Below, piece by piece: positions 4,031 through 61,610 of a stretch of DNA of 64,000 nucleotides (within the stretch, counting starts at the first letter, position 1; each line of letters opens with the position of its first letter). This stretch comes from Clostridia bacterium (GTDB lineage Bacteria > Bacillota > Clostridia > Christensenellales > Borkfalkiaceae), in contig JAFTVF010000013.1 in assembly GCA_017465865.1 (NCBI GenBank), forward strand, positions 62,001 through 126,000, written 5' to 3'. The notes beneath the pieces are model-generated. The model did no database searches. It worked only from the letters and a program-made list of their open reading frames with translations, and was not told where the DNA came from. The translations under genes were made by a program, and so were the position numbers.

Positions 4031-4516
4031 ATGGACACTAACGCGGAGATACGGAAAGAGGCAGAAAGCGGATTTACGGTTGATTTGTCCGCGTTGGTGG
4101 CACAAGCCCTCCAAGAGAAACGGGAAAAGGCGAGCGAGAAATACGCGCACGTAGAGCAAACGCCCGAGGGCGAGCGGTTGACGTGGAACGCAACGCCCGA
4201 ACAGGTAGCCCGTATTAACGCTGGCGAGCGCGAGGCATTGGACAAGTTTTATTTTGATAACCTGCAACGGTTGACGTATTGCGCGTATCGGTTTATGCGG
4301 AATAACGCGTACGTAAAGGCGGTTGCGTCCTACGAGGATTTACTGCAACAAGTCTATTTTGATTTACGGACGGGAGCGGTAAAGCTACGCCCCTATGATC
4401 GGGCAATATCAAGCGCGGTGTTTCACTCGTTTAGGTTTGCGCCCGTTGGGGGCTATGACGAGGTTTATATTTACAAAGTAAAGGAGAGCGGACAATGTCA
4501 AAGAGTGGCGAATTAA
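4031..4516 (+). CDS. Sigma-region-2-like protein of the element
   Basis: 161 residues from ATG 4031, chosen because AGGAGG lies about 11 bases upstream; the longer frame from 3965 has no such signal. The central part (REALDKFYFDNLQRLTYCAYRFMRNNAYV...SYEDLLQQVYFDL) resembles region 2 of sigma-70-family factors, which binds the RNA polymerase clamp and the -10 element. There is no region 4. The next gene overlaps by 22 bases and carries an HTH-like segment, so the two may act together. First gene of the Xre-controlled operon. Confidence 0.5.
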   Translation: MDTNAEIRKEAESGFTVDLSALVAQALQEKREKASEKYAHVEQTPEGERLTWNATPEQVARINAGEREALDKFYFDNLQRLTYCAYRFMRNNAYVKAVASYEDLLQQVYFDLRTGAVKLRPYDRAISSAVFHSFRFAPVGGYDEVYIYKVKESGQCQRVAN

Positions 4517-5463
4517 GGATACTTCGATATGGTCGGAGCGTAGACGCGCCCGTAAATTACCACCATTACCACCACCGCACGGACGACGTAGACGGGAACG
4601 GCTGGAAATGGCTTGACCTGTACGCCCACGCGGAGAGCGCGGAGGACGTATTCTTCGGGAGCGCGGACGAACGGGCACGCGAAATGTTCTTGAAAGGGTT
4701 TCGGGTATATCTGAAAAAGGTATTTACCGAGCAGGAGCGGGAATTTCTGAAAGGCATACTTGCAGGCAAGGAAAGCCCCTACCAAGTCGGGCGCGCGTTA
4801 GGCGTGGAGCATTTCGCCTTTTTGCAGGGAATACAGCGCAAAGCGTATAAGAACGTCAAACCGCTTGCCAAGCTGGCACGGCTCACAGGTTGGAGCGGTG
4901 CGGAAAGTTTCACGCAAACGATCTATCAGCGGTTAGAGCAATTAAACGCAGGCTTTGCGCTTAACGATATTATCCCGCAGAACCGAAGAGCGCAGAAACG
5001 GCGCGAAAGAATAAAGAAACAACAAGCGGAATATCGCGTAAAAAACATTGAGCGTATTAGACTAGTAAAAAAGCAATATCGAGAGAAAAACCGCGAAAAA
5101 ATCAAAGAGAGAATGGCAAAATATTACATACGAAAAAAAGCGGAATATACCGAAAGCGACATTGAAAGAATTAGGCAATATCAAGCCGAATGGCGCGAGA
5201 AAAACCGCGAAGAAAAGAACCGTAAAGAACGTGAAAAAAGACGAGCCAACCGCGAAGAATACAACAAAAAACGGCGCGAACAATATTCCAAAAAATCAAG
5301 AAAAAGTAAAGATAAACTTAAAGAGTATCAAGCGATATACCGAGCAGAACATAAAGAACAATTAAAACAATATCAAAAACAATATCAAAAACAATATCGA
5401 GCCAAAAAGAAAGCCGAACGCGAGGCGAAAATGCTTGCTTCCATCGAGGAGGCGAGCTTATGA
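4495..5463 (+). CDS. HTH-like protein with long basic coiled-coil tail
   Basis: 322 residues. The N-terminal half has a region-4-like segment at about residues 77-125 (FTEQEREFLKGILAGKESPYQVGRALGV...). From about residue 165 the protein becomes a Lys/Arg/Glu-rich helical repeat (Q-A-E-Y-R-x-K-N-x-E-x-I-R periodicity), likely a coiled coil or nucleic-acid-binding rod. It overlaps the preceding gene by 22 bases (AAGGAG 8 bases before its ATG) and the integrase by ATGA, so all three are translationally coupled. Not recognised as a known family; a role as partner of the sigma-like protein is inferred from gene order. Confidence 0.55.
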   Translation: MSKSGELRILRYGRSVDAPVNYHHYHHRTDDVDGNGWKWLDLYAHAESAEDVFFGSADERAREMFLKGFRVYLKKVFTEQEREFLKGILAGKESPYQVGRALGVEHFAFLQGIQRKAYKNVKPLAKLARLTGWSGAESFTQTIYQRLEQLNAGFALNDIIPQNRRAQKRRERIKKQQAEYRVKNIERIRLVKKQYREKNREKIKERMAKYYIRKKAEYTESDIERIRQYQAEWREKNREEKNRKEREKRRANREEYNKKRREQYSKKSRKSKDKLKEYQAIYRAEHKEQLKQYQKQYQKQYRAKKKAEREAKMLASIEEASL

Positions 5464-58372: not shown

Positions 58373-58401
58373 TTGCAAAAAAATTTTATTCGTGTTATAA
58401 T
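58373..58401 (+). promoter_or_regulatory. Promoter giving a leaderless mRNA
   Basis: TTGCAA (58373-58378), 17-base spacer, TATAAT (58396-58401); ATG 58409 follows after seven bases with no Shine-Dalgarno. Confidence 0.65.
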
Positions 58402-58408
58402 AAAAGAT

Positions 58409-59290
58409 ATGCAAAACCAAACGGAAATTCTCGAAAACTGCAAACTCTGCCCCGTGGAATGCGGCGCGGACCGAACACAAAGCGCGGGCGCGTGCGGCGC
58501 GCAGGGGCTTCGGATCGCGAAATACTATCTGCACCCGTTTGAAGAGCCGTGCATTTCGCATAAAAACGGGAGCGGTACGGTCTTTTTTTCGGGCTGTAAT
58601 CTGCGTTGCGCGTTTTGTCAGAACTACGAGGTCTCGCGCGCGAAACGGGGTAAGGAGATCACGCCGAGCGAGCTTGCGGATATTTTCAAAGAGCTGGAAG
58701 ATATGGGCGCGGAGAATATTTCTTTGGTAACGCCCTCGCATTTCGTTTTACACCTGGTTCGCGCTTTTGAGATTTACCGTCCGAAAATCCCCGTCGTTTA
58801 CAACACGGGGAGCTATGAAAAAGTCGATACGCTCAAACGCATCGATCCGTTCGTGGATATTTATCTGCCCGATATGAAATTCTATTCCCCTGCCCTTTCC
58901 AAACGGTATCTGGGCAAGGAAGATTATTTCGATATTGCAAGCGAGGCGGTGGCGTTTATGGCAAACGCGAAACCGCTGAAAATGACGGCGGATAAGAAAA
59001 TGCTGTCGGGCTGTATCGTTCGGCATCTCGTGATGCCCCTCTGCACGGGCGATTCCAAAGCCGTGTTGAAATGGTTCGTACGGGAGCTTCCCCGCGATAC
59101 CTATTTGAGCCTGATGAGTCAATACACGCCGTTTGGGGAAATTACGGGTATGCCCGAACTGTCGCGCGCGGTTACGGCGCGCGAATATTCCGCGGTCGTG
59201 GATACGGCGTTTGCGCTGGGTATCGAAAACCTGTTTTTGCAAGAGCGCGATTCGAGCGGCAAAGGCTATATCCCGAGCTGGGATTTTTAA
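58409..59290 (+). CDS. Radical SAM protein, PFL-activase-like
   Basis: 293 residues. An N-terminal Cys-rich stretch (CKLCPVECGADRTQSAGACGA) and the radical SAM CX3CX2C motif CNLRCAFCQNYEVSR match the group related to pyruvate-formate-lyase activating enzymes (PflX/YgkC type, PIRSF004869). Further: MGAENISLVTPSHF, VYNTGSYEKVDTLKRIDPFVDIYLPDMKFYS. The substrate protein is not known. Divergent from metK, which provides its cosubstrate; very short upstream region. Confidence 0.9.
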   Translation: MQNQTEILENCKLCPVECGADRTQSAGACGAQGLRIAKYYLHPFEEPCISHKNGSGTVFFSGCNLRCAFCQNYEVSRAKRGKEITPSELADIFKELEDMGAENISLVTPSHFVLHLVRAFEIYRPKIPVVYNTGSYEKVDTLKRIDPFVDIYLPDMKFYSPALSKRYLGKEDYFDIASEAVAFMANAKPLKMTADKKMLSGCIVRHLVMPLCTGDSKAVLKWFVRELPRDTYLSLMSQYTPFGEITGMPELSRAVTAREYSAVVDTAFALGIENLFLQERDSSGKGYIPSWDF

Positions 59291-59291
59291 A

Positions 59292-59544
59292 GAGTGAAAT
59301 GAATGCCTAACGGCGCGATATTTGCCTATGGCAAGCGATATAAGCGTAGCTTGCGATATGCCCTATCGGGCGCGATATGTTTTGTCGTACGAGTACGCCA
59401 AAACGTAGTGGTAAAATTTATAAATATTCCCTTTACGCTTGGCATAGCCAAGCATATCGCACGAGCGTTAGCGAGTATATCGCATTGGAAATATATCGCA
59501 CGTTCGTATATCGCGTTTTCGCACAGCGAAAACACATTTCACTC
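59292..59544. repeat. Palindrome-array element, GCGATAT/ATATCGC linkers
   Basis: Ends are perfect 10-bp inverted repeats GAGTGAAATG (59292-59301) and CATTTCACTC (59535-59544). Inside, hairpins (arms GCC, TTGCC, AAGC, GCCC, and GTTTTG with inner CGTAC) are separated by GCGATAT at 59315, 59335, 59353 and 59372; a central AT-rich piece (59405-59436) follows; then hairpins (arms GCTTGGC, ACGAGC, ATT, ACG, GTTTTCGC) separated by ATATCGC at 59454, 59477, 59493 and 59508. The linker halves are exact reverse complements. No coding capacity. Confidence 0.88.
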
Positions 59545-59670
59545 ATCAAATACCCGTGCTTTCCATTTGACGATCTTGCTCGTGAGCTTTGCGGCGCGCG
59601 CAGGGTCGGCGTAAGCAAGCTCGGCTTCCGATTTTCGGATTTTTTGCAGGGTTTTTTGCCTGTCTTTCAT
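59539..59670 (-). CDS. Possible 43-residue protein
   Basis: Short open frame from ATG 59670 to TGA at 59541-59539: Lys/Arg-rich start (MKDRQKTLQKIRKSEAELAY), then ADPARAAKLTSKIVKWKARVFDE. Composition and helix pattern look protein-like and the codons resemble local genes, but no ribosome-binding site is visible. Its stop codon lies in the terminal inverted repeat of the palindrome array, so the array is directly downstream of it. Not recognised. Confidence 0.35.
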   Translation of the reverse strand: MKDRQKTLQKIRKSEAELAYADPARAAKLTSKIVKWKARVFDE

Positions 59671-59711: not shown

Positions 59712-61610
59712 ATGTTGATCTCCTCCGAAAATTTATATTTTGGTTTTAACGGCGGGTCGCTGCTCGAAGCGGTTACGTTCACCTTAAACGAGGTCGAGCG
59801 CGTGGGCTTGATCGGCGGGAACGGCGAGGGTAAGACCACGCTGATCCGTTTGATTTTATCCGAGCTTGAACCCGAAAACGGCACGCTGTTCCGTAAAAAC
59901 GGGATCCGTATCGGGTATTTGGCGCAGAACGGCGGTTACGATTCCGCCAACACCGTGTTCGAAGAAATGCGGGAGATCTTTACCGCAGATATCCGCGCGA
60001 TCGAGGCGCTGCGCGAGATAGAACGGAAAATTTCTTTCGAAAAAGAAAGCTCGGAGGAATACCGCGCGTTGTCCGCAAAATACGAGGCGTTGAACAAGCA
60101 AATCGCCTCGCGCGACAGCTATCATTTCGAAGTGCGTATCCGTACCGTGCTCAACGGTATGGGTTTTGAAAACAATTACGATCAGCCCATCTCCACGATG
60201 TCAGGCGGGGAAAAAACGCGGTTAAAGCTTTGTCGGCTGTTGCTCGAAGAACCCGAGCTTTTGATTTTGGACGAACCGACCAACCACTTGGATATGAAAA
60301 CGCTGTTTTGGCTGGAAGAGTATCTTTCGGCGTTCAAAGGCGCGATCCTTACCGTTTCGCACGATCGGTATTTCCTCGATCGGCTGGTTTCGCAGATCTA
60401 CGAGCTGGAAAACAAAAAGCTGTCCGTGTTCAAGGGCAATTATTCCAAATACAAAATCCTCAAAGCCGAAAAGACGGCGCGGCTTTTGAAAGAATACGAA
60501 AAGCAACGGGAAGAACGCGCGCATATGCAAGAATACGTGGACAGAAACCTCGTCCGCGCAAGCACGACGAAAATGGCGCAATCGCGCAGAAAAGCGCTTG
60601 AAAAAATGGAGCTTGTCGAAAAGCCCGCCCTACCGCCCGCGCCGCCCGTGTTCCGTTTTTCGTACGCGGACAAGCCCTATGAAAAGGTGCTCGAAGTTAC
60701 CGCGCTCAAACTTACGGCAGGCGATAAGGTTTTATTAAACGGCGCGGATTTTACGCTGACGCGCGGGGAAAAATGTGCGATCGTCGGCGACAACGGCACG
60801 GGCAAATCCACGCTTGTCAAAGAGCTTGTAAAAGGCAAAAATCCCGCGATCCGTCTTGGACGGTTCGTCAAGATCGCCTGTTACGATCAGGAAAACGCCA
60901 ACCTCGACCAAAACGAGAGCGTGCTTAATGAGCTTTGGGGCAGACACGTTACTTGGGATCAAACCCGCGTCCGCGCGATCCTCGCGCAAGCGGGGCTGGT
61001 CGCCGAGGATATGGATAAAAAGGTGCGTATGCTGTCGGGCGGTGAACGGGCAAAGCTCGCCCTTGCTGTGTTCGAATGTGAAAACGGGAATTTTCTCGTC
61101 CTCGACGAGCCGACCAACCACCTCGATCTGCCCGCGCGCGAGAGCTTGGAAAGCGCGTTGAAAGAGTTTGACGGCACGGTGCTGTTCGTTTCGCACGACC
61201 GATATTTTATCCGCGCGATCGCGGGGAAGATATTAGAGCTGGAAAACGGCAAAGCGACCGAATTTACGGGCAGTTACGACGAATACACCGCCTATAAAAC
61301 GACGGCAAAAGCACAGGAAAAAAGCGTTGAACGCATACCTGCCCCCGATATTTCGACAAAAACCGACCAAAAAAACGGGCATTATCGTAGCAAGGAAGAA
61401 CGCGCCGCCGATGCCAAACGCCGTACCCGTATCAAAAAGATCGAAGACGAGATCTCCGCTCTCGAAGCCGAGGACGAACGGTTAAATACCGAGCTTTCCG
61501 ACCCCGAGGTTACGGGGAATTTCACTCTGCTCACCGAAAAATGCAACCGCCTCGAAGAGATCAAAACTCTGCTCGAAACCCTGTATTCCGAATACGAAAC
61601 CTTGATTTGA
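59712..61610 (+). CDS. ABC-F family ATPase
   Basis: 632 residues: two ABC domains without membrane part. Walker A GGNGEGKTT (35-43) and GDNGTGKST; signatures MSGGEKTRL and LSGGERAKL; Walker B LLILDEPTNHLD and FLVLDEPTNHLD; Arg/Lys-rich P-site linker (about 230-310, ILKAEKTARLLKEYEKQREERAHMQEYVDRNLVRASTTKMAQSRRKAL) and a C-terminal coiled coil (from about 560). ABC-F proteins act on the ribosome in translation regulation or antibiotic resistance; which one cannot be told. Confidence 0.93.
   Translation: MLISSENLYFGFNGGSLLEAVTFTLNEVERVGLIGGNGEGKTTLIRLILSELEPENGTLFRKNGIRIGYLAQNGGYDSANTVFEEMREIFTADIRAIEALREIERKISFEKESSEEYRALSAKYEALNKQIASRDSYHFEVRIRTVLNGMGFENNYDQPISTMSGGEKTRLKLCRLLLEEPELLILDEPTNHLDMKTLFWLEEYLSAFKGAILTVSHDRYFLDRLVSQIYELENKKLSVFKGNYSKYKILKAEKTARLLKEYEKQREERAHMQEYVDRNLVRASTTKMAQSRRKALEKMELVEKPALPPAPPVFRFSYADKPYEKVLEVTALKLTAGDKVLLNGADFTLTRGEKCAIVGDNGTGKSTLVKELVKGKNPAIRLGRFVKIACYDQENANLDQNESVLNELWGRHVTWDQTRVRAILAQAGLVAEDMDKKVRMLSGGERAKLALAVFECENGNFLVLDEPTNHLDLPARESLESALKEFDGTVLFVSHDRYFIRAIAGKILELENGKATEFTGSYDEYTAYKTTAKAQEKSVERIPAPDISTKTDQKNGHYRSKEERAADAKRRTRIKKIEDEISALEAEDERLNTELSDPEVTGNFTLLTEKCNRLEEIKTLLETLYSEYETLI

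Follow-up and report, generated by a model that had tools for sequence, protein, structure and literature searches.

A gene-less array of small hairpins and heptamer linkers in a Clostridia genome, and its probable link to PF05635 proteins

Introduction

Directly behind a radical-SAM gene in the genome of a Clostridia bacterium lies an element in which small inverted repeats are separated by a single heptamer, read in one orientation in the left half and in the other in the right half. The locus raises the question of what such an array is, how it came to lie between two ordinary genes, and whether it depends on a particular protein. The DNA analysed, referred to here as the window, is a stretch of 64,000 nt. 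As set out below, the element is very probably a gene-less member of a mobile family linked to the protein PF05635 (23S rRNA IVP/S23, also S23p; hereafter IVP).

Layout of the element

The initial annotation had described a palindrome-array element with GCGATAT linkers in the left half, the reverse complement ATATCGC in the right half, an AT-rich core between them and 10-bp inverted ends. The coordinates and parts were recovered as described, with four linkers in each half of the 253-nt element (Table 1). Ten small inverted repeats do lie between the linkers, but their description as all perfect does not hold, with mismatches in some and very short stems in others. At the outer ends, the sequence resembles a variant of the linker (GTGAAAT/ATTTCAC). 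The paired-linker pattern GCGATAT-N4-30-GCGATAT, searched on both strands, has six matches in the window, all within the element, against 0.04 expected. There are seven hairpins with a stem of at least 4, where shuffles average 3.35 and 25 of 1000 reach as many, and four with a stem of at least 5, where shuffles average 1.04 and 16 of 1000 reach as many. The folding z-score is -6.9 as RNA and -6.5 as DNA, and none of 200 shuffles is equally stable. A search of Rfam 15 gave no family match at the element at gathering thresholds. The element holds no gene; PF05635 is not encoded in the window copy.

Table 1. Features of the array element and of the genes on either side of it (positions in the window)
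Feature	Coordinates	Strand	Basis or remark
Radical-SAM gene (Pfam)	58373..59290	+	stop codon abuts element
Left end, 10-bp terminal inverted repeat GAGTGAAATG	59292..59301	+	outer linker variant GTGAAAT at 59294-59300
Hairpin 0, GCC-TAAC-GGC	59305..59314	.	sequence; aligned copies
Linker 1 (reads ATATCGC on - strand)	59315..59321	-	
Hairpin 1, TTGCC-TAT-GGCAA	59322..59334	.	sequence; aligned copies
Linker 2 (GCGATAT)	59335..59341	-	
Hairpin 2, AAGC-GTA-GCTT	59342..59352	.	sequence; aligned copies
Linker 3 (GCGATAT)	59353..59359	-	
Hairpin 3, GCCC-TATC-GGGC	59360..59371	.	loop is GATA on - strand
Linker 4 (GCGATAT)	59372..59378	-	
Long hairpin 4, GTTTTG...CAAAAC	59379..59404	.	compensatory changes among copies; T.C mismatch
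Core GTAGTGG...CCCTTTAC	59405..59436	.	pseudo-palindromic in full-length copies
Hairpin 5, GCTTGGC-ATA-GCCAAGC	59437..59453	.	compensatory changes
Linker 5 (ATATCGC)	59454..59460	+	
Hairpin 6, tandem-GA type AC-GA-GC-GTTA-GC-GA-GT	59461..59476	+	B half; conserved tandem GA/GA mismatch
Linker 6 (ATATCGC)	59477..59483	+	
Hairpin 7, ATT-GGA-AAT	59484..59492	.	weak, at most 3 pairs
Linker 7 (ATATCGC)	59493..59499	+	
Hairpin 8, ACG-TT-CGT or AC-GTTC-GT	59500..59507	.	weak, at most 3 pairs
Linker 8 (ATATCGC)	59508..59514	+	
Hairpin 9, GTTTTCGC-ACA-GCGAAAAC	59515..59533	.	sequence; aligned copies
Right end, terminal inverted repeat CATTTCACTC	59535..59544	-	linker variant ATTTCAC
ABC-protein gene (ABC_tran, two stretches)	59712..61610	+	right flank of element

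Copies in the same genome

The genome that holds the window (G000; 1.42 Mb in 19 contigs, 72.7% complete) contains 12 copies of the element: the window copy used as query, ten more, and a half copy (L012) that stops at the core. The 11 further copies are 74-81% identical to the query over their aligned parts. A copy of a second subfamily is found at C6:9418-9591 (L043); a search of plasmid records with this sequence gave no match. Together with the arrays found in many relatives, these copies dispose of the possibility that the locus is the only one of its kind. The segments between the linkers are palindromes common to the copies position by position, with no unique spacers, and the array is not a CRISPR, as had been stated.

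Each hairpin position is largely conserved across the aligned copies, with the loops most variable and some compensatory changes. The claim that palindromy is kept while sequence is free holds between species but fails between the copies of one genome. In a covariation test on four helices in 11 copies, with 500 shuffles, the share of paired cells was 94.2% and that in shuffles 90.3%; compensatory cells numbered 15, where shuffles had 6.6, and the covariation score reached 0.131 as opposed to 0.060. None of the three values was equalled in any shuffle. Two of the five measures of this control (control a) did not exceed the shuffles: pairs that had changed on both sides numbered 3, with 2.7 in shuffles, and further pair types 4, with 6.0 in shuffles.

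Insertion site

The element starts 1 nt past the TAA stop codon of the radical-SAM gene, a gene present in 40 of the 41 genomes of the genus, its own included. Thirty radical-SAM loci were fetched, one being that of the window and 29 those of other congeneric species. The comparison with empty sites that had been suggested gave a uniform picture: the radical-SAM gene is followed by the ABC gene in all 29 species, and a GCGATAT array is found at this site in none of them, with no linker words in 28 and one single word in the other. The gap between the two genes is 136-664 nt long in these congeners and 421 nt in G000, where 253 nt of it are the element. By eye, sequence conserved with the closest relative (L516) resumes immediately to the right of the element. 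The array-free site in the congeners, the 12 copies and the occurrence of arrays in phage contigs bear out the suggestion of a non-autonomous mobile element, in a data set in which all assemblies are MAGs and in which no transposition event was seen between strains of one species.

Comparison of the window site with the congeners by eye revealed no target duplication. Across 35 elements, the longest direct repeat in a search for target-site duplications was 10 nt, against up to 13 nt between unrelated flanks. One phage-contig copy (L200, at about 4310-4560) is flanked, as judged by eye, by an 18-nt direct repeat, CCCGGCTAAGCGAGCCGC, part of which is repeated in reverse by the outer hairpin. 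This repeat lies outside the flank covered by the 35-element search (where the copy is listed as L352), and is possibly the trace of an insertion event.

Two smaller features of the site were also observed. In one congener (L519, from G023), the radical-SAM gene is followed at the orthologous site by a 664-nt, hairpin-rich gap without GCGATAT, which may be the insertion of another family. A 43-aa ORF on the minus strand (59539-59670) converges on the radical-SAM gene of the window; by eye, its stop codon is supplied by the end of the element (GTGA), and similar sequence follows the radical-SAM gene in many congeneric species.

Distribution in genomes and phages

A triple-linker pattern was detected in 21 of 396 genomes of the order, representing 18 of 142 genera, with none for the reversed-pattern control; among the 21, G038 at least has words with no hairpins in between, and others consist of a single match. 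At least 120 stretches were matched in genome contigs, and among those listed 72 pass a hairpin filter and 48 fail it. Eighty of the listed 120 are titled. The 47 passing matches among these all carry names of Clostridia and related groups (Oscillospiraceae, Ruminococcus, Christensenella and others), with ruminant gut as a frequent source, and the 33 failing matches belong mostly to other groups. The 1.3-Mb genome G045 alone has 51 matches to one array, and at 9 of 15 loci its copies are flanked by convergent genes. Behind several of these copies come a terminator-like hairpin and a word resembling the DnaA box.

Among viral sequences, 71 of 78 pattern matches fail the hairpin filter, and only three of the seven that pass (L200, L239 and L263) were judged by eye to be real. 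The array directly follows the gene for the major head protein (PHROGs) in phage contig L239 and precedes it in L200. Among 80 relatives of this head protein, 53 were inspected and four have arrays, these being the two seeds, L362, where the array precedes the head gene (by eye), and L408, where it lies elsewhere in the contig (found automatically). The remaining inspected relatives have no array by automatic unit search or in the nearest sequence, read over 90 nt ahead of the gene and 60 nt behind it. When part of L239 was searched against phage records, only a short match outside the array was obtained.

Array architecture in relatives

In most full elements, each half has four linkers. In one large subfamily, a word in the core (e.g. 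GGGATTTATATC) is, by eye, complementary to the outermost hairpin of one half and its linker, and this core word covaries with the outermost hairpin (AAATCCC, AAATTCC, GCATTCC, AGATCC and GAATTCC; L133 has no exact fit). The opposite half in this subfamily has hairpins with tandem GA mismatches. Linker words vary by family, with GTGATAT/GTTATAT in G045 and GTGAATT as an outer linker in G000. A uniform rule for the end that faces the stop codon fits most type-2 elements, but not the family of the window's own genome.

A row of units at G172:C10:13935-14084 (in L271), with three identical and two near-identical linker-hairpin units in succession, represents array growth by unit duplication. Four half arrays in a single orientation occur in L096 (1732-7960); the three inspected lack another half and lie shortly before an apparent gene start. 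Two ideas about the architecture were given up. The notion that a pentamer matches five linkers was dropped because linker numbers vary, and the candidate for an autonomous form with genes between a left and a right array over kilobases (L099) has ordinary-looking genes between its half arrays.

A PF05635 protein as probable array partner

Reading of the array neighbourhoods revealed a recurrent ORF of about 114 aa, located beside or inside the arrays. The ORF was identified as PF05635 (E 1e-20 to 3e-23 in four proteins) and as the TIGR02436 four helix bundle protein, with a match to PDB 2rld (five chains, E 1.9e-22). Co-occurrence was assessed in 15 array genomes and 25 others. PF05635 is present in 12 of the former and 5 of the latter (Fisher p 3e-4); the protein in G135 is a contig-edge piece only (E 5e-17, family alignment), and with 11 of 15 instead of 12, p is 2e-3. 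IVPs of the GCGATAT clade (see below) occur in 7 of 15 array genomes (G017, G045, G121, G139, G172, G224 and G250) and in none of the 25 others (p 3e-4).

The enzymes that had been proposed as possible partners, which double as controls, behave differently. IS200/605-type (Y1) transposases are found in 5 of 15 array genomes and 12 of 25 others (p 0.5), and the reverse transcriptase RVT_1 in 4 of 15 and 5 of 25 (p 0.7), with none in G000. Y1 (PF01797) is absent from G045, G139, G172, G250 and G261, and G000 has one Y1 gene. An IS200/605 or RAYT partner was rejected on the lack of association and the absence of Y1 from these five element-rich genomes. The likely array partner is PF05635.

The surroundings of the IVP genes agree with this assignment. 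Among 36 IVP loci of the order inspected by eye, 33 have repeated heptamers adjoining the gene, which alternate with hairpins at 28 and form a bare tandem at five (L458, L466, L467, L481 and L483); of the remaining three, L549 is ambiguous, L548 is truncated where its contig stops, and at L545 there is no array beside the gene. By automatic count, the 380 nt upstream of the IVP contain on average 5.0 hairpins at 29 loci; the corresponding averages are 1.2 for shuffles and 1.9 for 51 genes of the window. A score of six or more in the inverted 6-mer statistic is reached by 28 of the 29 loci from the order, 20 of the 29 from the phylum, 23 of the 51 genes of the window and 104 of 580 shuffles of the order set, and this statistic alone separates IVP loci poorly.

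Several findings count against the link. No IVP gene was detected in G000, G035 or G252, which are 73, 81 and 71% complete, and the IVPs seen in five further GCGATAT-array genomes (G019, G027, G118, G135 and G261) belong to other clades, so that 8 of the 15 array genomes lack the matching protein. G172 is the genome with the most pattern matches, and its sole matching IVP (L545) is free of arrays over 330 nt on the upstream side and 200 nt on the downstream side.

Linker words and the IVP tree

With labels set by eye after the trend had been noticed, the linker word requires 14 changes on a tree of 29 IVPs, as few as there can be (shuffle mean 19.5, 0 of 200 as low), and the Mantel correlation is 0.67, or 0.47 with a single GCGATAT row kept (0/10000 each, eye-set labels). 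The nine GCGATAT rows, which comprise five families and two further MAGs, with G121 represented twice, form one IVP clade with support 99/92. Linkers chosen by rule, some of which are visibly wrong, gave a Mantel r of 0.39 (0/5000), and of 0.28 after removal of four of the five GCGATAT rows (3/5000). One locus viewed after the tree had been built (L461) encodes a protein 91% identical to an IVP with GTGAAAT linkers, and GTGAAAT-type words lie upstream of it. Among eight GCGATAT-clade loci measured, six have the end of the last linker 14-40 nt ahead of the IVP start; at L469 there are 59 nt from the last linker to the first ATG of the frame, and at L273 the IVP gene lies inside the core. The earlier reading of the element as an array of binding sites gains support from this agreement between the linker word and the phylogeny of the adjacent small protein gene.

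Loop polarity

Loop statistics were compiled from 528 distinct segments bounded by exact linkers, a set that includes chance loci; 263 of the segments are perfect hairpins. On the ATATCGC strand, three-base loops are of the form R..A in 112 of 143 cases and T..C in 2, and four-base loops are R..A in 81 of 102 and T..C in none; tandem mismatches are GA/GA in 34 segments and TC/TC in 0. The same bias is seen in both halves, though on opposite strands, and the favoured strand runs outward from the core both ways, which is the 3' half of each strand. Such a layout may correspond to a lagging-strand template or a 3' overhang. The intermediate in single-stranded form that had been proposed is suggested by these strand-polar loops, and remains putative.

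Nearest-neighbour energies of the 263 hairpins favour the observed strand in 95 cases against 11 as DNA and in 76 against 26 as RNA, and energy alone thus does not decide between the two. RNA hairpins would favour GNRA loops. The third base of GNNA loops is A in 28, C in 24, T in 11 and G in 2, and this frequent pyrimidine (35 of 65) makes the loops a better fit to stable DNA loops than to RNA GNRA loops. In DNA, GNA and GNNA mini-hairpins are reported to be extraordinarily stable and to resist nucleases (PMC4686876, in excerpt). Where a member has an IVP gene, the B half forms the leader of that gene, so that it would fold in the IVP mRNA as well.

Comparison with known systems

The 23S rRNA intervening sequences (IVSs) have the same protein family (PF05635/TIGR02436), complementary ends and heptamer repeats beside the gene, and the four plus four heptamers of the window element are inverted on both sides, as in IVSs. 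PF05635 is encoded by relatives of the window element with GCGATAT linkers. However, the window element is intergenic, outside the 23S rRNA gene, gene-less and present in 12 copies, with hairpins between its heptamers, whereas classical IVS members often have bare tandem heptamers. In Coxiella, tandem GACAGAT heptamers precede the S23p ORF, the S23p of Xanthomonas is a homopentameric ring, and older proposals held that the IVS ORF served mobility (PMC4990558, in excerpt). PF05635 was found in 72 of 398 genomes sampled across the phylum, in 59 of them above the cut-off. In a classical set made up of 29 of the 30 best-scoring phylum loci (one masked), the flanks have a period of 7 nt: mean identity at this lag reaches 0.38 upstream and 0.37 downstream, compared with 0.26-0.29 for the other lags, and lag 7 is the best upstream at 17 of 29 loci and downstream at 16 of 29. 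Hairpins are not enriched at these classical loci (1.1 against 1.0 in shuffles). Two loci (L502 and L512) apparently lie within the 23S rRNA gene (by eye).

REP and REPIN elements are short, multi-copy, intergenic, palindromic and non-autonomous, and depend on one protein gene in trans. The window family is likewise small, dispersed, palindromic and gene-less with one protein gene, but the element has eight linkers and ten hairpins rather than a pair, and Y1 was not found in five element-rich genomes. It shares with MITEs (DDE) the dispersal, the lack of a gene and terminal inverted repeats (10 bp in the window copy, shorter elsewhere), and differs from them in the absence of a target-site duplication and in an associated gene that is not a DDE transposase. 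The DGR protein Avd forms a ring of four-helix bundles. PF05635 proteins resemble Avd (PMC10053308, in excerpt) and S23p likewise forms a ring of four-helix bundles (PMC4990558, in excerpt), whereas the arrays have no association with a reverse transcriptase. In the 3' overhangs of Streptomyces telomeres, a row of palindromes has GCA loops with sheared G:A pairs and a dedicated binding protein (PMC4513846, in excerpt). The likeness here, palindromes with loops of the sheared G:A type, is one of working only; the window array is chromosome-internal, with its halves back to back, and no terminal protein is known. By analogy, the element resembles REPIN/RAYT systems in economy and Streptomyces telomeres in DNA form, and is a member of neither.

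Interpretation

The explanation that best accommodates these data, with a probability of roughly 0.6 for the whole, is that the element is a gene-less copy of a PF05635-linked mobile family that spreads by an IVP-dependent mechanism. Complete members would consist of two inverted arrays, each of 7-nt linkers and small hairpins, around or beside one PF05635 gene. Judging from the sequence comparisons, the IVP probably binds the linkers; that it recognises them on single-stranded DNA is given somewhat less than an even chance. The hairpins would fold on the strand that runs 5' to 3' outward from the core, as lagging-strand template or 3' overhangs, and forks leaving the core would expose the lagging-strand template. 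Host replication and repair enzymes might then copy and join the IVP-bound folded strand with no dedicated nuclease, although this step is doubtful; joining would take place into small intergenic gaps, often right after stop codons. The IVP would act in trans on gene-less copies, and in G000 it would have been lost or would lie in the unassembled part. We know of no DNA-cutting or DNA-joining enzyme in the element, which counts against this explanation.

It is unlikely that the IVP instead binds hairpin-linker units in transcripts and controls their processing or stability, with its own leader, the 3' ends of neighbouring genes and 23S rRNA intervening sequences as targets and dispersal as a by-product of another route. 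Such a role would suit the location of the B half 14-40 nt 5' of the IVP start in six of eight GCGATAT-clade loci, the many type-2 elements directly after stop codons (by eye), the RNA energies that also favour the observed strand, and the excision of known intervening sequences from 23S rRNA by RNase III (PMC4990558, in excerpt). The favoured strand is, however, opposite in the two halves, so that no single transcript would have both in the favoured form, and no Rfam family matches the element at gathering thresholds. Nor are C and T as third base in 35 of 65 GNNA loops what GNRA loops in RNA would lead one to expect.

Less probable again is mobilisation of the arrays by a conventional transposase other than Y1, with the IVP as cargo or regulator. 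The absence of target duplications speaks against it, as do linkers and hairpins too variable for a fixed transposon end and a linker word that changes with the IVP clade, which cargo would leave unexplained; in its favour are the absence of a known nuclease or recombinase in the elements and of the matching IVP clade from 8 of 15 genomes, and the fact that Y1_Tnp and RVT_1 were the only alternative partners examined. Host-kept intergenic elements of a terminator or BIME-like kind, with a role in the cell and spread by ordinary duplication, would account for the preference for gene ends and the placement between convergent genes in 9 of 15 G045 loci. This is very improbable given an orthologous site that is array-free in 29 of 29 congeners, a patchy distribution among genera, the presence in phage contigs and an association that follows the protein family, not the lineage of the host.

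If the preferred explanation, a mobile family linked to the IVP, is extended, these elements would be a class of mobile DNA whose sole dedicated protein is a non-catalytic ring of four-helix bundles, and the 23S IVSs would be members of the class that have landed in rRNA; this generalisation is put forward tentatively. The ring would read a lineage-specific heptamer between single-stranded DNA hairpins, host replication enzymes would copy and join, and gene-less heptamer-hairpin arrays would be REPIN-like dependents of the IVP class. The open-licence PMC literature yielded no report joining the IVP to hairpin arrays outside rRNA. The lineage-matched heptamer and the gene-less copies offer a concrete candidate substrate for the widespread PF05635/S23p family, which has a solved relative (2rld) and is described as without known function in the excerpt of PMC4990558. 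The old suspicion that intervening sequences are mobile becomes a testable claim, and, if it is true that no nuclease is needed, the family would represent a novel mode of DNA dispersal.

Surroundings of the IVP genes

A tRNA gene lies up to about 500 nt upstream at 10 of 28 IVP loci scanned (L455, L458, L464, L466, L467, L468, L472, L480, L481 and L483), and the arrays are thus often just behind tRNA genes. In G172, three loci (L455, L472 and L483) have IVP genes of different linker types, each followed, as judged by eye, by the same Nudix-like ORF or its remains. At G733:C150:4002-8790, four IVP genes, one of them with a stop, are found within 5 kb at intervals of about 1.5 kb.
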